From: a virus
Length of the DNA stretch: 24,033 bases
Strand: one strand, 5' to 3'
Virus record (IMG/VR): IMGVR_UViG_3300020190_000341
Location: 1-24,033 of that record
A program made the position numbers and the translations under genes. Shown here piece after piece: positions 1 through 21,153 of the stretch (the stretch's first letter is position 1; each line of letters opens with the position of its first letter). Below the pieces are notes generated by a model, which was not told where the DNA came from, did no database searches, and worked only from the letters and a program-made list of their open reading frames with translations.

Positions 1-237
1 TAATTTTTGAATTAAATCAACCGCCATATCAAAATCTTGACCTATAGACCTATGAAAATGAACAATATCGTATTGTTTCCAATAGTTATAGTCATTAATT
101 TTGGGTTCGTAATCAATATCTACGTGAAACTCATCTGCGTGATTATTTTGAAGGCAAACGTGGGGGTCTACTGAGCGAAATTTTCCAACTCCAGTACGGT
201 CGCTAGGGGTGACTAAAACCTTAATTTTTTTTGACAT
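1..237 (-). CDS. Glycosyltransferase-like protein, N-terminal part (runs off the left edge)
   Basis: Only the first 79 codons are in the window; the gene continues beyond base 1. The ATG is at 237-235. The protein opens with a short basic stretch and a beta-strand, IKVLVTPSDRTGVGKFRS, followed by a second strand ending in YDIVHFHRS. This strand/Gly-loop/strand layout resembles the N-terminal Rossmann half of GT-B glycosyltransferases, which phages use to decorate DNA or virion proteins. The catalytic C-terminal half is not visible, so donor and acceptor cannot be named. The first 17 bases overlap the 3' end of the upstream homing endonuclease gene. In that arrangement the only upstream sequence available for initiation lies inside the endonuclease gene. 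Confidence 0.5.
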   Translation of the reverse strand, partial: MSKKIKVLVTPSDRTGVGKFRSVDPHVCLQNNHADEFHVDIDYEPKINDYNYWKQYDIVHFHRSIGQDFDMAVDLIQKL

Positions 238-1090
238 ACTTTTTTATAATTTTATTTATTAATTTTGGGTTTTTGTTGTATTCCGTTTCCCAAATCACTT
301 CTAAATTATAACCATTACTTTTTATTAAATCAATTTTCTTTTTGTCATAATTCCAGATTTCTTCTGCGGACATTTTTTTTAACTCATGATAATAGTCAAA
401 ATTATACTTATTGGGGTTACAATGCCAATAGTCGCCATTATATTCTATAATTAAGTTTAATTCGGGAATAAAAATATCACAAATATATGGTCTTAAAACT
501 TTACTATGTTTTGTATTAGTGAATTGTTTTTTTATTTTTTCAAATATTTCTATTTCACTTTTCGACCTAGTATTAAAATTTATAGGATTAATTTCTATTC
601 TTTTCAATAATATTTCTTTTAATTTTTCTCTGTTTTCTAATTTTGCCATAGAATTGTTTGCCCCCATTCCCTTACCCTTTCTACTTTTAGAAATTTCTTT
701 TTTTGTTTTTTTTGTGTGTTTTTTTCGATAAAAAGGGTTTCCTGTCCCAATCTGAGATTCAAGTGAACATTTTTTACATTCAATATTTTTTTCAATTTTA
801 TTATAATGATTTCTACATGCAATTGTTTTATTTTTCGATTTAGTTAAAACAGTTTTTTTACAAGTGGGACAAACTCTTTCAACCACATAAAAATCATCTT
901 TTTCAATTATATTTAGACTAGCACACCTATTTCGTTTTCTTGTTACGTTGTGTCTTTTTAGAATTTTTAAAATGGTTGGTTTAGAAACATTAAACTCTGA
1001 TGACAAAACCAATGAGCTTTTTCCACTAAGATATTTTTCTAAAATTTTATTTTCATCTAAATGTATTTTATTTCCCATACTTTTTTTCAT
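221..1090 (-). CDS. Free-standing homing endonuclease: HTH, Cys/His cluster, NUMOD3, Vsr-like nuclease
   Basis: 289 residues, strongly basic and especially AT-rich. Domains in order: a helix-turn-helix-like segment (about 12-50); a zinc-ribbon-like cluster (C74, C77, C92, H95, then C105 and C108); a NUMOD3-type DNA-binding motif (about 117-141, NPFYRKKHTKKTKKEISKSR); and a nuclease domain (about 175-275) with SKSE, CDIFIPELNLIIEYNGDYWH and a terminal VIWETE. The E216/D220/H223 pattern fits the Vsr-like EDxHD homing-endonuclease family. These enzymes cut an uninvaded allele so that the gene is copied in by repair. No intron boundaries are evident, so it appears free-standing, like T4 seg/mob genes. 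An alternative in-frame start is the ATG at 1078. Its end overlaps the glycosyltransferase start by 17 bases. Confidence 0.85.
   Translation of the reverse strand: MKKSMGNKIHLDENKILEKYLSGKSSLVLSSEFNVSKPTILKILKRHNVTRKRNRCASLNIIEKDDFYVVERVCPTCKKTVLTKSKNKTIACRNHYNKIEKNIECKKCSLESQIGTGNPFYRKKHTKKTKKEISKSRKGKGMGANNSMAKLENREKLKEILLKRIEINPINFNTRSKSEIEIFEKIKKQFTNTKHSKVLRPYICDIFIPELNLIIEYNGDYWHCNPNKYNFDYYHELKKMSAEEIWNYDKKKIDLIKSNGYNLEVIWETEYNKNPKLINKIIKKYVKKN
235..245. repeat. Left copy of an 11-bp direct repeat flanking the homing endonuclease
   Basis: CATACTTTTTT, which on the minus strand reads AAAAAAGTATG and contains the ATG of the glycosyltransferase gene. The same 11 bases occur at 1076-1086, across the first codons of the endonuclease gene. 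Joining the two copies would put the glycosyltransferase in frame behind the present endonuclease leader. Confidence 0.7.
1076..1086. repeat. Right copy of the 11-bp direct repeat
   Basis: CATACTTTTTT, identical to 235-245. On the minus strand it lies within the first five codons of the endonuclease (MKKSM). Confidence 0.7.
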
Positions 1091-3735: not shown

Positions 3736-6045
3736 ATGCCAAGTCAAAGTATTAATTCATATTTTACGCCTAAATATTCTCAAAAATTAAATTTTGGGAA
3801 TTATTTTGATTTTACTCTCATAGGTGATGAAAAAGACTATGATGAGGAAGTTGTTTTTTCAGACGAATTAATAGCCATTAATGATGGTAATAGACTACCA
3901 ATCATATATGATTTAGACAATACCCAAACATGTGAAAAACCAACAATGATTTTTGATACTTTTTATAGTAATGCAACTTTAGTTAGTAAAAATTATTATA
4001 ACCCAAACAATCTTGACCTGGCTTGTTTGTCTGCTCTTACTGGTACTTGTGATGTGGGTCTTACTGCAACAGACAATGGTTTATATACTTTAATGACAGG
4101 TCAAACTTTATTTTATACTATGGGTATTAGAGACGATTATAAGTTTCACCCAATGTACTACGATAGAAGAATGAAGATGCACATGGTAACTGGTTATACA
4201 ACTCCACCAAATGTTGTATTTTCAGGTAGACCAAAACAATCTATGTATAATATTGTTTCTAAAACAGACCCAACGGTTGGGTATTATCAAGAGTTGTATG
4301 GTGGGTTCTATCAAGGTTTTTATAAATTGTTTGGTTACGACTATGAAATTTTTCCTGAAAGGGTAAATAAAGGTTGGACTATGGAAACGGTAATCAAGCC
4401 AAGAAATGTTGATGAGTATAGTATAGATACCTCAACTGAAGAATACCTTAACACTAGATACCCTAACAACGCTGGTACTTTTTTCTACTTTGGTACAAGA
4501 GCCGAAAATAAATATTATCACTACGCCGATGGTAGCCCTGAATCTGATTCAGGTTATACAAGGGCGACTACAGGTCTCACAAGTTTAAGTAGTTGTACTT
4601 GTTATCAGTCGGGGTATACAAACGCAAATTGCGTGAAGTTATATCCAATGAGTTCAACAACTGCTTATCATAATATAGGTTGTAATTGTGGTGCTTGCAC
4701 TGAACAAATCCCAAACCTACCTTTAGACCCAAAATTTGATGTACTTTCAAATGCCCTTTCAATTAGATTTAGTGGGTGTCCATTGAATCCGAGTTTATGT
4801 GTAAAATACATAAAAATTACAGGAGACTGCGTTACAACAGGCGTATGTGAAACTACCGGTGTTACTTTCCAAACGGGTTATACTATTACTGAAGTTTGTA
4901 CACCACCAATTTATGATATATGTGATTACATATGTGGAACAATCACTGAAGACAGATGGGTTATGGTTACTGCGGTTTTTGAAAGATATACAACAATAGA
5001 AGAGTGTGATTTATTAAATCTTGGTGGTCTTGGGGATATTCGAGAAGTTACTTACCAATCAATCCTTAATGGAACCGCATATAATTTAATAATGCCACCT
5101 GAAACACATTCAGGGGATACGAAAGAAAATAAAGTATATAGAATTGTTTTTGACCACAAATGGTTCGACGATACTTGGTATAGATTAGGTAGATTAAAAT
5201 TATACATAAACGGATACCTTTTTACGGTCATTGAAAATTTTGAAGAAATTATTCCTCGCGAGTTGAATTGTGAAAAAGAAAAACAAATAGGAGTTCCTTT
5301 TAATATGTCTTGGGGAGGAGGAAGTCAGGGGCTTCACGATAGTTTAATATTTTCGGCACATACTTTATTGAATGGTCCTTATAAACAAGACCCCGAATTA
5401 TTTCCAAACGAAATACTTTCTGCAACTACATTTAGCGGATTAGATACAAATATACTAGTTGAACAAAATTTTGGTGGGTCTTTTATGGGTGGAATTTCAC
5501 AATTTAGAATGTATACTGAACCATTTTCTAGTCCACAAGTCCAACACAATTTTAGAATATTAAAAGATAAGTTTGATTTATTTGACTATTGGTGTCCAAA
5601 TTGTTTAAAAATACCTGCACCCGCACCTACTCCAACACCAACACCTACTCCAACACCTACTCCAACACCTACTCCAACACCTACTCCAACACCTACTCCA
5701 ACACCTACTCCAACACCTACGCCTGAGCCCTGTTTATCAAATCACTCATACTTATCTTCTAACATAATATTTAGTGTTAGTGGGGTAAATATAAATTATG
5801 ATTATTCTTCTGCTTGTAGTGGCCTTGCTTGTTTACAGGCTAGTAGTTGTTCACCAACCGGTTCATATTCACCATCTTTTATGGATACCGCAAATGTACA
5901 AGTTGGTACTGTGTTTTACGGAAATGCAACAACTTGTAATTATTACACATTTAGCGGTTGGTATATTGTACAAAACTCAGGAAGTTATGTGTTAATTAGT
6001 ATATCTAATGGAATTGTGACAACTGTTTTAAGTAATTGTCCATAA
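3736..6045 (+). CDS. Large virion/appendage protein with LamG-like region and Pro-Thr linker
   Basis: 769 residues. The first ~620 are beta-rich with many aromatics. The stretch from about 220 to 620 has the feel of a concanavalin/LamG-type sandwich: [28 protein letters not shown] and a terminal [15 protein letters not shown]. Cys pairs cluster around residues 285-400 ([22 protein letters not shown]). A Pro-Ala/Pro-Thr linker (about 627-665) leads to a ~105-residue Cys-containing C-terminal module (666-769). Lectin-like sandwiches joined by PT linkers suit a tail or head appendage contacting glycans; this is inference. There is no signal peptide or membrane segment. It is divergent from the minus-strand cluster and followed by a small virion-like gene. 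Confidence 0.7.
5623..5724 (+). repeat. 12-bp tandem repeat encoding a (TP)n linker
   Basis: Six perfect copies of ACACCTACTCCA occupy 5641-5712, flanked by degenerate copies at 5623-5634 and 5713-5724 and a half copy between. The unit is in frame (TPTP), so gain or loss of copies changes linker length without a frameshift. Confidence 0.95.
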
Positions 6046-9671: not shown

Positions 9672-10793
9672 TTATATAATATTATAAGGACTTGTAAATG
9701 GTCTAAATTTCAAGGCCTTATTTATATTTTCAGCCTGTGATGCTTTTTGTTCCAATTGTTTTTCAGGTCTTAATCTTTCAAGTCTTGTTTTCAATTCTTC
9801 CCATAACAGAGCTTTTTCATCTTTCGCTTCAGTGTTTAAACTTTGCCATTCTAACGTCAATTCAGAATCAGGAGTTTTTAAACTTCCACTATACTTACCT
9901 CTTACTTTCGCTAAAGTTTCTTTACAATAAGCGGTAAACCATCTTCTAACCCAAGTTTGTGCTGGTGAGTTTAGTTCGTCCCATCGCATTTCATCTATTG
10001 GAACATCTGATGGTAATCTAACAACATCGGGATTTTTAGCCAAACAATCATCTCTATCAAATGTGTCGTAGTACCAATACCACACACGATATTTTTGGTA
10101 ATTAATATTTCCAAAATCAAACCTACCTCCAGGAACATTCATTAAATGTAGTGCCTTTTTACCTTCAGGAAGTGACGTGATTCTGTAAGTTAAATCACCT
10201 GTAATTATTCTTCTTTTCATTTGAATGTCGGACATTCTAAGTAAAATATCAAATGCTGGTGTAATAAAATAATTACCAGTTGTACCTAATTGTGAAAATC
10301 CGGCACCGCCACCAAGACCAATACCCCCAAAACCACCAAACCCACCCATAAATGGGTCAAAGTAAGCAGCATCTAATTCAGACCTAGAAAACCATAAAAT
10401 TTCGTTTATTTCCCGACCTGCCGGTATTTCATATATTTGTTGGTTTTTAACTAAATCAATATAATCTTTTTTTAAAACCCAATCTCCACCGGCTTGTAAT
10501 CCCACAATTTTAGAATACGCAAATGTAAATTGAGTTTCATAGTCTAAACTTCTTGTCGTAAATGCTCTTGTAAGTGATTGTTCATCTAAGTTAAGACCCG
10601 CCAAAGATGTCCATTGAGATTCAATTAACCAATCATTAACGTGTTGAGCATAATCTTGAATTGACAATTCTAATAATGAATCCATCATTTCATCTTCTAA
10701 TTCAACACTACGAAGAGGTGCCCCTAAAAGATTTTTTATTCTTTTATAAAGTTTACTTCTATCAGGTTCAGTGATTATTACAGTAGTTGCCAT
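9672..10793 (-). CDS. Probable neck / head-tail connector protein (gp13-like role)
   Basis: 373 residues. The N-terminal 60 residues are helical (KLYKRIKNLLGAPL, EDEMMDSLLELSIQDYAQHV), as in connector adaptors. A beta region follows (about 110-260), interrupted by a very Gly/Phe-rich loop (GGFGGFGGIGLGGGAGF, about 150-166). The C-terminal third is helical again: PAQTWVRRWFTAYCKETLAK, then an arginine-rich helix LKTRLERLRPE and a tail ending in LKFRPFTSPYNII. Helical bundle, insert and C-terminal tail fit the first head-tail adaptor ring placed under the portal; the exact T4 counterpart (gp13 or gp14) is uncertain. A TATTTATA motif precedes it by 13 bases, which supports late expression. Confidence 0.55.
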   Translation of the reverse strand: MATTVIITEPDRSKLYKRIKNLLGAPLRSVELEDEMMDSLLELSIQDYAQHVNDWLIESQWTSLAGLNLDEQSLTRAFTTRSLDYETQFTFAYSKIVGLQAGGDWVLKKDYIDLVKNQQIYEIPAGREINEILWFSRSELDAAYFDPFMGGFGGFGGIGLGGGAGFSQLGTTGNYFITPAFDILLRMSDIQMKRRIITGDLTYRITSLPEGKKALHLMNVPGGRFDFGNINYQKYRVWYWYYDTFDRDDCLAKNPDVVRLPSDVPIDEMRWDELNSPAQTWVRRWFTAYCKETLAKVRGKYSGSLKTPDSELTLEWQSLNTEAKDEKALLWEELKTRLERLRPEKQLEQKASQAENINKALKFRPFTSPYNII

Positions 10794-10819: not shown

Positions 10820-11905
10820 TTAGTCGTTTAGTTTTGACTGCGTCGAATATAAATCATTTACAAACCCCCAATTAACTACCTTCCAAAAGTTTGAAACGTA
10901 TTTATCTCTTTGGTTTTTATACTTTAAGTAATAAGCATGTTCCCAAACATCCAACCCCAAAAGAGGATATCCTCTAACTTCTTGATTGTCCATTAACGGG
11001 TTATCTTGATTTGCAGTAGTGACAATCTTCAATCTATTTGTCTTTGTCAATATTAACCAAACCCATCCTGAACCAAATCTTGATTTTGCCTCTTCTTCAA
11101 ACTTTTCTTTGAATTTTTCAAAAGAACCAAAAGTTTTTTCGATTTTAGATTTTATTGGGTCTTCAAGATTTTGTTTTTTTGGTGAAAGCATTTTCCAAAA
11201 TAAGGCATGATTAAACGCTCCGCCACCATTATTTCTAACTACCGTATTGAATTTTGATATATCTGAAACTATTTGTTCTAAATCTAAATCTTTACCTTTA
11301 ACTTTTTCTAATTCCTTATTTAGCTTATCAACATAACCTTTGTAATGCTTATTGTAATGAGTATTCATAGTCTCACTATCAATAAAAACCTCTAAAGAGT
11401 TATATTCATAAGGTAATTTATCTATACTGATTTTTTTAATTTCATTAATTAAGGTGATTTTTTCAGATGAGTCAATTTCTAACATAGATTCAATCTCACT
11501 TATTTTTTTTGAAAATGATTTATAGATTGATTTTTCCATGTCCTTGTTATTTTTTTCAAATTTTTTAATTTCTTGTGATGATTGTGAACTGGCTTCATCT
11601 TCATTTTTTCCACCAATGTCCTTACCTTTTTTTCTTTTTAAAATAGTTCTTTGGTATTCGTGCGACCATTCGTGAGCTAATGTTCTCATTATGTCACGAT
11701 TTAATCTATCTTTTACTAAAATTTTAAGTTTGTTTTTGTCTGTACGTGAACCTGTGGTCATAGTACCCGTTCTTTTTGATTGAAATGAAATATCAATATC
11801 ATCCTCTAATGGATAATTCTTTTTAAGTTGTAAAATAAAATCGTTGATTAATTTCTTATCTTCTTTTGTTGGGTCTATTCCATCATATTTAATATTAACT
11901 TCCAT
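10820..11905 (-). CDS. Fusion protein: zincin-like metallopeptidase domain plus Fe/Mn superoxide dismutase
   Basis: 361 residues in one uninterrupted frame. Residues 1-115 contain an HExxH site, TLAHEWSHEYQ (H78, E79, H82). NEDEA follows ~20 residues later; E102 fits the ExxA third ligand of gluzincins. A charged helical linker (about 106-160) joins it to a full-length superoxide dismutase (163-355). That domain starts LPYEYNSLE and has all four metal ligands: H183 (THYNKHY), H233 (FNHALFW), D319 and H323 (LDVWEHAYYLKY). The gateway residues H187 and Y191 are present. Gly at 229 and Gln at 300 (TANQDNP) match the Mn-type rather than the Fe-type. Superoxide to peroxide chemistry is expected; the peptidase substrate is unknown. 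It lies between the helicase and neck genes. No signal peptide is seen. Confidence 0.88.
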   Translation of the reverse strand: MEVNIKYDGIDPTKEDKKLINDFILQLKKNYPLEDDIDISFQSKRTGTMTTGSRTDKNKLKILVKDRLNRDIMRTLAHEWSHEYQRTILKRKKGKDIGGKNEDEASSQSSQEIKKFEKNNKDMEKSIYKSFSKKISEIESMLEIDSSEKITLINEIKKISIDKLPYEYNSLEVFIDSETMNTHYNKHYKGYVDKLNKELEKVKGKDLDLEQIVSDISKFNTVVRNNGGGAFNHALFWKMLSPKKQNLEDPIKSKIEKTFGSFEKFKEKFEEEAKSRFGSGWVWLILTKTNRLKIVTTANQDNPLMDNQEVRGYPLLGLDVWEHAYYLKYKNQRDKYVSNFWKVVNWGFVNDLYSTQSKLND

Positions 11906-11909
11906 ACAA

Positions 11910-11917
11910 TATAAATA
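11910..11917 (-). promoter_or_regulatory. TATTTATA motif between helicase stop and SOD-fusion start
   Basis: On the minus strand TGATATTTATATTGTATG: the helicase TGA, then the 8-mer, then 4 bases, then the ATG. The gap is too short for a normal leader, so it either drives a nearly leaderless mRNA or is an AT-rich chance match. Confidence 0.3.
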
Positions 11918-14785
11918 TCATCTCCTATTGGAAATCATATTTAACATTTCTTCAATTGTTGATGCGTCATCCATCATATCATCACCCATTACGGTTGATA
12001 TGATTTTCTTTTTTCTACTAAGGATGTCGTATATAGCACCTTCAATTGTGTTTTCAAATAGTGGATAATAAACAGAAGTTGAATTTTTTTGACCTATTCT
12101 ATGGGACCTGTCTTCGGCTTGTGAATGTTCTGCAGGTACAAATGATAAATCATTCATTATTACAGCTTCAGCTGAAGTTAAAGTAATACCAACACCAGCA
12201 GCCCTTAAGTTTCCAACAAATACATTTATTTTATCATTTGTTTGAAATTGGTCAACAGCATACTGACGTGTTGCGTTACTACAACTACCATCAAGATAAA
12301 CTGATTGTTTTCCAAAATGTTGGTGTATTTCTTGTAGTGTGTCTGTAAAATTTGTGAATATGATAACTTTTTTTCCTTGTTCAATTATGTTTTCAGCCAA
12401 CTCAATAGTATTTTTAATTTTTTCTTGGGCAATTACTTTTCTAACTTTCATTAGTTTTGAAAACTGAATTGTTAGGGATGAAGACTCTTCAGGTCTTGTA
12501 TCATACCAATCAAAATATTCACCCATTAATTCTTCGTAATCTTTTGACTTTAGTCTTAAATAAACAGGAGTAATTATTTTTTCAGGTAAATCTAATACCT
12601 CTTCTTTAAGTCTTCTAAGAATATGGGTTTGTGTTCTTTCTCTTAACTCTTCTAAATTTGATGCCCCCGTTACGTTCCAAACTTTTCTTTTACCAACACT
12701 AAACTGAAAACCATTGCAATATCTTCTTGCGTATGCCATCCAATTTGCGGCAACAGGACTATCAACCAAATTTAGTAAGTTATAATAATTCATTGGTCTT
12801 GAGGTCATTGGGGTTCCTGATAATAACCAAACCCTTTCTAATTTACTAGCAATATCATTTGCAATTTTCGTTCTTTGTGCTTGTGGATTAGATATCATGT
12901 GAGCTTCGTCCATAATCACCAAGTCAAAGTTAATTTTCATAATCTCTGATTTTTCCTTGTTTTTGATGTCGTGGAAGTTTTTTAATATATCGTAATTAAC
13001 AATTACAAAATCGTGTTCATTAGAAAACTTTTTACCTTCAGAAATATAAACACTTCTGTTTGAATAATTTTCTATTTCTCTTTGCCAATTTATTTTTAAT
13101 GATGCGGGACAAACAATTAATATTTTTTTCGCACCTGTTTCAAGTGTGGCTATTATGGTAGAAGTTGTATTATGTGTAACAATACAATGTTCTGTCACAT
13201 ATAGTTTATCAGGAGAGTCAACTGAAATACAAACGCTATCCTCAAACCCAACCTTTTCGATGTTTTTAATAAATCTACCAGTTGGGTATTTTGTGGGTTC
13301 AACATACCTTTCGGATTTTCGTTTTAATCTAAATGGATTCATACCTTTTGGTAGTTTGATATTAACCCTATAAGATAATTGACCTTTCTTTTTTTCACCA
13401 TTATGAGTGTATGTTGGAATACGAGTTTGAACTCTTGCAATACCACCTAACGTTTGAACCACCTCAACAACGTCATCACAAAGTTGTTTTGAAATGGTTG
13501 AAAATTCAGTTCCTAAAAACTTTCCACTACTATTAAACATGCAATGACCGTCAGTGTCCATTAATCCTTGTAGTATTGAAAGTCTGTTATCAACAGATGA
13601 ATATTTGTATATTTCTGGGATAAACTTATTGTGGGAACGGGTGTGTTCAATACCCAAATCATATAAAGACAAATTAACATTAATATATCCATTTCTTTTA
13701 TTACCCTGTGATTTGTTTTCTTTTAAATTCAGTGAAGTAAATAAATTATCATAATCGTCTTTATGAACTGAAAATCTGATATTTTTTTTGTTAAACGAAC
13801 CATCACCTAAGGCAAGTCCTAACAAATATGGGTCAATTGGAAGATTTTCGTTACGTTCGAATTGAATTGGTTTTACAATAGGAATTTGCCATTTATTATT
13901 TCCGTTTGGTGATTTGAAGTAAGTTTCAATTTCATATTCCTTATCTTTATTATAACCAATACCTTTAACTTTAATTTTACCCCCCTCAAACATTTGTTTT
14001 GTTGACAGAACTAAAGATTTTTTTCGTCTTTCGTTTTTTGTATTTTTACCATAATTGGGTGATGAAACTGACCACAAATGTTCGTCACCTGCCAAAATAG
14101 AAAATCCATCATTAAATGTAATTTTATATGTTTCCCTAACTCCCTGTGGAAATACACCAACTACATTATAGGGTTTACCATCACTACCAATAATTTTATC
14201 ACCTACTTTTAAATCTCCAATTTTTTTTCTACCAAATGGGGTAAAAACCCTATTATTAATGGGTTCAAATTTACCCAAACCCATATCGTCTGCCAAAATA
14301 AACTTTTTATTTCTAACTAATTTTTCAATAGCCTCTTTTTGATGAGCCATTGGAGCTCTGTGACTATACTTTTCATAATCAATTGAAACATTTTTTACTT
14401 CGTTGTCTTTTAATATTGCTGATTTTGGCATCCAAAAGTCGTGTAAAGTTTCGCCACTGAAAATTTTGCCCCATATATGATAAGATTTATCTTTTTCAAC
14501 TAATAACTTTTCAACATATATTTCACTAGGTTCTTTTGTATACATTTTGTCTTCCATCAGTTTTTTTCCAAAATATGTGTCTAATTTGACCCATTTTTTT
14601 GCAACCTTAGGGTTTGTATTCTTATAGTTTATAATGTATTCTGCTTGTGCTCTCGTCGGGGTGAATGTTTTGCTATTATCTTTTTTATGTTTTAAATTTA
14701 GGATATAGTTATTTGACCCTTGATATTCATCTAATAAAAAAAGGGCTTTTGACTCTGGTGTTTTAGACACAAAATCTTCATTCAT
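11918..14785 (-). CDS. SNF2-family helicase/ATPase with an in-frame intein in the P-loop
   Basis: 955 residues from the ATG at 14785; the frame stays open to an ATG at 14821, but the extra 12 residues are hydrophobic and less likely. After removing the intein (173-539) the host protein is 588 residues. It has a phage-type N-terminal region, the Q-like MAHQKEAI, P-loop DDMGLGK|TTS split by the intein, DEAH box VIMDEAH (626-629), motif III LLSGTP, motif V GVGITLTSAEAV and motif VI QAEDRSHRIGQ. This is the full SNF2/SMARCAL1-like set, so an ATP-driven translocase that remodels DNA forks or displaces proteins is expected. Intein removal is needed to rebuild the P-loop. It is divergent from the 14839 gene, and the SOD-fusion gene follows 12 bases after its stop. 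Confidence 0.93.
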   Translation of the reverse strand: MNEDFVSKTPESKALFLLDEYQGSNNYILNLKHKKDNSKTFTPTRAQAEYIINYKNTNPKVAKKWVKLDTYFGKKLMEDKMYTKEPSEIYVEKLLVEKDKSYHIWGKIFSGETLHDFWMPKSAILKDNEVKNVSIDYEKYSHRAPMAHQKEAIEKLVRNKKFILADDMGLGKFEPINNRVFTPFGRKKIGDLKVGDKIIGSDGKPYNVVGVFPQGVRETYKITFNDGFSILAGDEHLWSVSSPNYGKNTKNERRKKSLVLSTKQMFEGGKIKVKGIGYNKDKEYEIETYFKSPNGNNKWQIPIVKPIQFERNENLPIDPYLLGLALGDGSFNKKNIRFSVHKDDYDNLFTSLNLKENKSQGNKRNGYINVNLSLYDLGIEHTRSHNKFIPEIYKYSSVDNRLSILQGLMDTDGHCMFNSSGKFLGTEFSTISKQLCDDVVEVVQTLGGIARVQTRIPTYTHNGEKKKGQLSYRVNIKLPKGMNPFRLKRKSERYVEPTKYPTGRFIKNIEKVGFEDSVCISVDSPDKLYVTEHCIVTHNTTSTIIATLETGAKKILIVCPASLKINWQREIENYSNRSVYISEGKKFSNEHDFVIVNYDILKNFHDIKNKEKSEIMKINFDLVIMDEAHMISNPQAQRTKIANDIASKLERVWLLSGTPMTSRPMNYYNLLNLVDSPVAANWMAYARRYCNGFQFSVGKRKVWNVTGASNLEELRERTQTHILRRLKEEVLDLPEKIITPVYLRLKSKDYEELMGEYFDWYDTRPEESSSLTIQFSKLMKVRKVIAQEKIKNTIELAENIIEQGKKVIIFTNFTDTLQEIHQHFGKQSVYLDGSCSNATRQYAVDQFQTNDKINVFVGNLRAAGVGITLTSAEAVIMNDLSFVPAEHSQAEDRSHRIGQKNSTSVYYPLFENTIEGAIYDILSRKKKIISTVMGDDMMDDASTIEEMLNMISNRR
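13169..14269 (-). mobile_element. Intein with LAGLIDADG homing endonuclease, class 3 features
   Basis: 367 residues between GLGK and TTST of the helicase. It begins FEPINNRVFTPFG (block A), followed by IGDLKVGD. Block B reads ILAGDEHLWSV, with H64 and W66. The two LAGLIDADG motifs are LLGLALGDGS (about 149-158) and LQGLMDTDGH (about 233-242). Block F reads SVCISVDSPDKLYV, with C347 where class 1 inteins usually have Asp. Block G ends VTHN, and the +1 residue is Thr. Residue 1 is Phe, not Cys/Ser/Ala. Trp two after the block-B His, Cys in block F and Thr before the His-Asn form the WCT triad that defines class 3 inteins, which start splicing from the block-F Cys. It is therefore probably active. 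Confidence 0.92.
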
Positions 14786-14827
14786 ATAATATAATATAAG
14801 TAATAATAAAGAAAAAATCAATTAAAC

Positions 14828-20125: not shown

Positions 20126-20263
20126 ATGAAGATTAAAAAGAAAATTATTAAAGAGTCTTTCGGTGTCAAACAACCTAATATTGAAACTTTTTCTATAAAA
20201 AAACAAAATATTATTATAACTGAGTCACAGTTAGAAAAACTTTTAGAAAAACTACAAAAGTAA
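20126..20263 (+). CDS. Small 45-residue protein ahead of the HAD gene
   Basis: Begins ATG at 20126 and ends with TAA overlapping the next ATG (TAATG), which points to coupled translation. The peptide is very basic at its N-terminus (MKIKKKIIKESFGV), with a polar middle (KQPNIETFSIKKQN) and an amphipathic C-terminal helix (TESQLEKLLEKLQK). It is not recognised. The N-terminal IIKE fits the (L/I)xE pattern that the T4 prohead protease cuts, as does LNE in the next gene; this may be coincidence. It has no Cys, no aromatic core and no membrane segment. Confidence 0.55.
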   Translation: MKIKKKIIKESFGVKQPNIETFSIKKQNIIITESQLEKLLEKLQK

Positions 20264-21153
20264 TGGATATAAAAGGATATGTCAGAAAATTTGTTCAAAA
20301 TAAATTGAACGAAGGGTTTGATGACGTAGGAAGACCAGATTTAAAGTATTATGCTTTTGATTGGGATGATAATATATTATTTATGCCAACAACTATAATT
20401 GTAGCGGATGAAGATGATAATGAAGTTCAGATGTCTACTGAAGATTTTGCAGAACACAGAGAACAGATTGGTATGGAACCATTTACTTATCGTGGGAAAA
20501 ATATAATAGGTTACGCATTAGGAGCACTTCGAAACTTCAGAGAACCTGGTAATAAAAAGTTCATTTTGGACTCCATGATGGCAAAAATAGGTCCTTCATG
20601 GAAAGATTTTGTGGAGTGTGTAAATGGGGGGTCAATATTTGCAATTATTACCGCAAGAGGTCATAGCCCTGAAACACTTAAAGAGGCTGTTTATAATCTT
20701 GTAATGAGTAATAAAAATGGAATTGACAGTAGAGAAGTTGCAAAAAATTTAAAAAAATATAGAGATATTGGAAACAAGGTAAGTAGTGATACAAATAGAA
20801 AAGCACTTTCACCTTCAGAATTAAATGAATATTTAGATATGTGTGTTTTTGAACCCGTTTCTTTTAATGGTGAAAATATTTCGAATCCTGAAATAGCTAA
20901 GTTTAATGCTCTTAAAAACTTTATATCTTATTGTAGAGATTTGTCAAAAGAGATATCTCAAGATATGGAAATAAGTGGGACACCGATGTTTAAAAATGAT
21001 GTAAACGGAAATCCTATATGGGAACCACTAATTGGTTTTTCAGATGATGACTTGAGAAATATTGAAAAAATTAAAGAGTTATTATCAAATGAATATGAAG
21101 AATCACCAGTCAACTTATATTTAACTAAAGGAGGTAATAAAATTAAATACTGA
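20263..21153 (+). CDS. HAD-superfamily phosphatase-like protein
   Basis: 296 residues. Motif I is FDWDDN (nucleophile D33, acid/base D35), motif II IITARG (T130), motif III is probably K213 (EIAKFNALKNF) and motif IV GFSDDDLRNI (D261-D263). All four HAD catalytic motifs are thus present in order, with a cap-like insertion (about 40-115) after motif I. A phosphomonoesterase acting on a nucleotide, nucleic-acid end or protein is expected; the substrate is not visible. An N-terminal peptide (MDIKGYVRKFVQNKLNEGFD) precedes the fold and looks like an add-on. It sits between sheath and tube genes, where T4 has no such enzyme, and starts within the stop of the 45-residue gene. Confidence 0.8.
   Translation: MDIKGYVRKFVQNKLNEGFDDVGRPDLKYYAFDWDDNILFMPTTIIVADEDDNEVQMSTEDFAEHREQIGMEPFTYRGKNIIGYALGALRNFREPGNKKFILDSMMAKIGPSWKDFVECVNGGSIFAIITARGHSPETLKEAVYNLVMSNKNGIDSREVAKNLKKYRDIGNKVSSDTNRKALSPSELNEYLDMCVFEPVSFNGENISNPEIAKFNALKNFISYCRDLSKEISQDMEISGTPMFKNDVNGNPIWEPLIGFSDDDLRNIEKIKELLSNEYEESPVNLYLTKGGNKIKY

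Follow-up and report, generated by a model that had tools for sequence, protein, structure and literature searches.

Superoxide dismutases (SODs) of phages are usually seen as auxiliary metabolic genes, the products of which act in the infected cell after their expression. The SOD genes of freshwater phages have been reported as a defence against ROS (PMC6802176), and the available portion of that report concerns the same enzyme from the same habitat as the gene described here, although it gives SOD among ROS genes only and mentions neither a fusion nor a late element or processing site. SODs are also annotated in several Pseudomonas jumbo phages, and together with the freshwater genes they speak against an initial annotation of the present locus, in which phage SODs were taken to be rare.

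A second system that bears on this locus is the head of phage T4, in which gp21 cleaves after an L/I-X-E consensus and short propeptides at the N-terminus provide the targeting of internal proteins (PMC9026906). The gene resembles those for T4 Alt and IPI-III, whose capsid-targeting sequences are cut by gp21 (PMC9026906), in its late-type element, in an L/I-x-E motif before the putative mature domain and in the presence of an S77 protease in relatives. It differs in that a whole enzyme domain would serve as the propeptide and in that the putative targeting peptide would lie inside the protein, whereas that of T4 is N-terminal.

The gene lies in a 24,033-nucleotide stretch of viral DNA (the window; IMG/VR record IMGVR_UViG_3300020190_000341) and encodes a predicted gluzincin-type peptidase domain joined to an Mn-type SOD. 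The fusion gene is real, conserved and widespread, and it is present as a probable late gene in many freshwater T4-like phages. A search of annotated phages found no full-length peptidase-SOD fusion, and a literature search combining zincin, superoxide dismutase and phage, which covered an incomplete set of main texts, found none described. While the component parts are known already, their combination and handling appear to be new, namely a TATTTAT element of the gene's own, a linker L/I-x-E so placed that cleavage would release an SOD of normal length, and the same motif at third-domain junctions and in N-terminal tags. It is tentatively proposed, at slightly less than even confidence, that the product is a late, head-associated cargo precursor that is packed in the capsid, cut into separate enzymes and delivered to the host.

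The Fusion Gene and Its Surroundings

The features of the locus, all on the minus strand, are as follows.

11918..14821 (-), SNF2-type helicase with intein, upstream (Pfam; comparison with a relative)
11911..11917 (-), TATTTAT element, 6-12 nt before the fusion ATG (common to many virion genes)
10820..11905 (-), fusion gene, gluzincin-type peptidase, linker and Mn-type SOD, 361 aa (ORF, Pfam, alignment)
11546..11905 (-), predicted peptidase domain, residues 1-120 (AF2, VIA-align, BFVD relative)
11660..11674 (-), HEWSH zinc site, residues 78-82 (invariance in relatives)
11600..11602 (-), E102 of the NExxA motif, putative third ligand of the zinc (invariant; spacing HEXXH-x19-E)
11441..11545 (-), residues 121-155, charged linker, for the most part disordered in the prediction (pLDDT)
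11441..11449 (-), I-N-E, residues 153-155, candidate cleavage site of the head protease, after E155 (motif)
10823..11440 (-), Mn-type superoxide dismutase domain, residues 156-361 (Pfam; nearest solved, Sphingobacterium T2 MnSOD)
9672..10793 (-), neck / head-tail adaptor gene, downstream, 26-nt gap (phrog_211; synteny)

The reading of this gene as a single-ORF fusion was upheld: one 361-aa frame runs from an ATG at 11905 to a stop codon at 10820-10822 with zero internal stops, and neither a stop nor a frameshift separates the two domains. The residue numbers given earlier for the protein are correct, and the strand, which had been left unstated, is the minus strand. A sequencing or assembly accident was ruled out because numerous independent contigs carry the fusion. 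The dN/dS ratios of 0.12 for the peptidase and 0.08 for the SOD indicate that both domains are maintained under purifying selection.

Other features of the window were recorded in passing. The SNF2 helicase is interrupted within its P-loop (GK/T) by an intein of 367 aa (13169-14269, minus strand), while the copy of the helicase in one related genome (G005) is 587 aa long and intein-free. The first residue of the intein is Phe rather than Cys or Ser, and the positions of its W, Cys and T-H-N residues presumably fit a class 3 (WCT) intein. An ORF at 221-1090 (-) has a weak NUMOD3 match and is possibly a homing endonuclease, and a 769-aa ORF at 3736-6045 (+) contains a long PTPTPT repeat.

The Superoxide Dismutase Domain

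Pfam identified both halves of the SOD well above their cut-offs, Sod_Fe_N at residues 161-241 (E 4e-23, 82 bits, cut-off 27) and Sod_Fe_C at 250-350 (E 3.5e-42, 143 bits, cut-off 20.9). The metal ligands H183, H233, D319 and H323, the gateway pair H187/Y191 and the Mn-type residues G229/Q300 are invariant in 81 of 81 alignment rows, as befits the complete Mn-type enzyme that had been recognised at the outset; the loci among these rows represent 55 distinct sequences. G229 and Q300 suggest that Mn is the metal. A profile of 46 relatives matched solved MnSODs from about residue 160 (E 1e-75), with that of Sphingobacterium sp. T2 (6GSC, 5A9G; PF00081/PF02777 family) the best, and a Foldseek search with the AF2 model returned the same enzyme (44% identity, TM 0.90 on the target). 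The phage domain shares with it all ligands, gateway and Mn-type residues and an approximately equal length, but has in addition an N-terminal E-[IM]-K-K extension, a fused peptidase and, in relatives, third domains. Invariance of the complete active site disfavours the suggestion that the SOD fold serves merely as a binding or multimerisation module.

The Peptidase Domain

Residues 1-120 are, on the basis of HEXXH-x19-E, NExxA and a predicted fold, a gluzincin-type metallopeptidase domain. H78, E79, W80, H82 and E102 are invariant in the 78 of 78 alignment rows that have the N-domain, in agreement with the original assignment of HEWSH (H78/H82) and E102 as a gluzincin-like ligand set. Modelled alone by AF2 (pLDDT 93, pTM 0.88), the domain is predicted to have the zincin fold that had been expected of it: the best solved structures in VIA-align were zincins (Z 8.4-9.6), including M30 lugdulysin (Z 9.6 over 110 residues), M1 aminopeptidases (Z about 9), the YbeY-like 1oz9 (9.3) and Wss1 (8.4), every one of which has a zincin-type HEXXH domain. 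Foldseek gave zero PDB matches below 0.001 for the domain, the E-value being just 0.04, and the fold call therefore depends on VIA-align and the motifs.

Sequence searches placed the two parts of the protein differently. Pfam bore out the SOD part of the initial annotation through both Sod_Fe domains, whereas Pfam and PHROGs gave no convincing family match for residues 1-130, all matches in either collection, including those to the SprT-like and M78 families of Pfam, being weak. A PDB sequence search found no relative of the domain, and annotated phages held no convincing one. Among viral models (BFVD), a standalone phage relative of 127 aa was found (A0A6J5L9U4; TM 0.89, 34% identity), with weaker matches inside large phage proteins labelled AAA or amidoligase. 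Compared with clan MA(E) gluzincins (M1, M30 and related families), the phage domain has in common HEXXH-x19-E, NExxA and the predicted fold (Z about 9.6), but it is minimal at about 120 aa and lacks a PDB sequence relative or convincing curated family match. A host-gene origin was probed by one cellular-genome scan with the domain, in which the sole match was short, due to chance and located at an unrelated site. Judged by their residues, both enzymes appear to be active.

IrrE-like and SprT-like phage proteins among the BFVD matches, together with the weak Pfam matches and the Wss1 score, would accord with a host-takeover module, in which an ImmA/IrrE- or SprT-like peptidase cuts a host regulator or DNA-protein crosslinks and the SOD handles the resulting stress. 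This seems improbable, as the Pfam matches are weak and a common zincin fold does not mean a common function.

Relatives and Domain Architectures

Far from being a one-off, the fusion has hundreds of relatives in IMG/VR. A first scan found at least 592, of which the best 80 loci were kept, and 98 distinct proteins were drawn from the window, these 80 loci, 80 from a second scan and 20 from a third. They comprise 44 peptidase-SOD, 24 peptidase-SOD-third domain, 22 tag-SOD and 8 tag-SOD-third domain proteins, proportions that depend on the queries and are not natural frequencies. Both domains are thus present in 68 of the 98, and the peptidase is absent at the same locus in 30. Among distinct relatives with sufficient flanking sequence, 85 of 96 have the SNF2 helicase upstream and 90 of 92 have the neck gene on the downstream side. 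Third domains behind the SOD are of at least four sequence types (L048, L050, L062 and L196), a Pfam search identified none of them, and part of one of the types (L070) is found in L212 as well, there not within the fusion.

On the SOD tree, presence of the peptidase requires 14 changes, at least 8 of them forced by well-supported branches, and the SOD domains of L001 (peptidase present) and L044 (peptidase absent) are identical. N-terminal stretches similar to the peptidase's first strand in L163, L190 and L195 indicate in-frame loss of the peptidase. Because the peptidase is patchy, with at least 8 gains or losses, and both domains are under selection, it was concluded that the peptidase is useful yet dispensable and that the SOD is the constant part. 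This pattern bears on a reading in which the peptidase is a head or neck assembly factor, for maturation or clearance, with the SOD dimer providing association and SOD activity secondary. The constancy of the neighbouring neck gene and the late-type element are in its favour, but assembly cannot generally need a peptidase that is missing from 30 of 98 relatives and has a history of at least 8 gains or losses, one of them beside an identical SOD; the invariance of the SOD site also counts against this reading, which is very unlikely.

The capsid protein places Flavobacterium phage immuto and Microcystis phage Mel-JY01 among the nearest cultured phages, and the best neck-gene matches include Flavobacterium phages. 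With Flavobacterium phages among both sets of matches, a Bacteroidota host is plausible.

The TATTTAT Element and Probable Late Expression

In six related genomes, 151 of 586 genes have TATTTAT in the 45 nt upstream of them, compared with 20 expected, and 112 of 587 genes have it in a control stretch downstream of stop codons. Within 60 nt it precedes 37 of 52 virion-gene instances as against 5 of 39 replication-gene instances, these being homologous genes in the six related genomes and hence not independent, so that the p-value exaggerates the difference; all five replication-gene instances are one DnaB-like gene. The element is present before sheath, tube, neck, S77 protease, scaffold and core genes. 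In the six genomes it is absent before polB, ssb, recA-like, ribonucleotide reductase and SNF2 helicase genes, and none lies within 60 nt upstream of the portal, MCP and terL genes. The SOD gene has it in all six genomes and at 94 of 97 loci (within 45 nt), in contrast to none of six for the adjacent upstream helicase. In the window it also stands 21 nt before the neck gene and 41 nt before the sheath and tube genes. TATTTAT is the complement of TATAAATA, the T4 late promoter, and it is a candidate late promoter of this phage group.

Late expression is also compatible with a product that is never packaged. In this main rival to a packaged precursor, the protein is an uncut, bifunctional late cytosolic enzyme, the SOD of which guards the infected cell, as well as progeny DNA and virions, against superoxide in the late phase of infection, while the peptidase acts, tethered, in quality control or on host proteins. 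The complete SOD active site and the place of SODs among the freshwater-phage genes reported for ROS defence (PMC6802176, available portion) argue for it, and it is possible, if rather doubtful in view of the linker.

The Linker and Its L/I-x-E Sites

In the AF2 model, pLDDT falls below 50 at residues 131-135 and 137-163. All 98 of 98 distinct relatives, whether the peptidase is present or absent, have I or L at position 153 and E at position 155; residue 154 varies, and the linker is otherwise variable in sequence. Cleavage after E155 would leave the SOD with an N-terminal length approximating that of solved MnSODs. The S77 protease was found in 7 of 16 partial relative genomes, always above the Pfam cut-off, and the 24-kb window stops short of the region. 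Capsid propeptides of this phage group appear to end in LINE/A, IVSE/A and LISE/A (cut points, marked by a slash, being read from sequence), and the linker ends LINE, IISE and LITE are close to these, although the residue after E155 is I or M where capsid propeptides have A. E155 could instead be structural, because K157 and hydrophobic residues at 156, 159 and 161 are likewise conserved near the site. An extra site at residue 130 reads IFE/S in peptidase-less forms and IYKS in the window's own clade.

The motif recurs at the other end of the SOD. All 28 distinct SOD/third-domain junctions have [LI]-x-E, and two copies are present in 21 of 23 scored junction segments, compared with 2.4 expected from shuffles, while the third domains behind them look unrelated to each other in sequence. 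T4 core proteins are encoded between portal and protease, and the gene in that position had the highest [LI]-x-E density in 3 of 3 genomes. Double [LI]-x-E tags were found at the N-termini of 43 genes (e.g., MKKIVRLTESDLVNIVKRVIEE/Q), against 12.6 expected, and residues 46-80 of the same genes gave 26 hits too. [LI]-x-E is short and frequent in amphipathic helices; because a loose count at N-termini was weakly above chance, the motif alone was not taken as proof. A profile of the SOD/third-domain junction placed 14 of its 45 top hits at N-termini, which hold 11.5% of residues, and made no clean pick of tags. A search of annotated phages with the tag peptide MKKIVRLTESDLVRIVKRVINEQ, a query of only 23 aa, found no match.

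The peptidase form starts directly with the fold, without a short N-terminal capsid-targeting propeptide, and only the peptidase-less relatives have a short tag. Several otherwise different proteins bear a near-identical tag, MKKIVRLTESDLxxIVKRVINEQ, a candidate capsid-targeting sequence found at L089 12701-13171 and L089 14362-14712 (G005), with copies in G003, G008, G009 and G012. Another tagged protein, at G012 139790-141025 (L115/L116), has an HELKH motif and is a possible second packaged metallopeptidase. In the window, an HAD-like protein is encoded between the sheath and tube genes (20263-21153, plus strand), and in several relatives it has a variable N-terminus ending in [LI]-x-E (KLNE/GFDD).

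An uncut cytosolic enzyme leaves unexplained the invariant [IL]-x-E in a disordered linker, its presence at the junctions and its likeness to the tags of other proteins. Packaging and cleavage is, judging from these motifs, the most economical reading.

Proposed Role as Packaged and Cleaved Cargo

In the proposed pathway, the linker would bring the precursor into the prohead, and the S77 protease of the phage, an enzyme of the T4 gp21 type, would cleave after E155 and free a normal-length SOD from the peptidase part. Both enzymes would then enter the next host along with the DNA; there the SOD would clear superoxide from the outset of infection, while the peptidase would cleave some target. 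In peptidase-less relatives a short tag would replace the peptidase, and where a third domain is present, the same motif would set it apart as well. The original idea of a virion-associated protein gains indirect support: the upstream element is of late type, a neck gene adjoins, relatives encode an S77 protease and the L/I-x-E site is invariant. Held more tentatively still is a broader form, a capsid-cargo polyprotein in which interchangeable enzyme domains (peptidase, SOD and several unrelated third domains) on targeting and cleavage linkers would be loaded into the head, separated by the maturation protease and delivered as a set, a ROS-defence enzyme thus reaching the host with the DNA.

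If this is true, an SOD made late and cut in the head would be at work as soon as the DNA enters, and delivery of an antioxidant enzyme by a phage would be directly testable. The shared linker and tag may further provide a means of listing other candidate injected proteins in uncultured T4-like phages.
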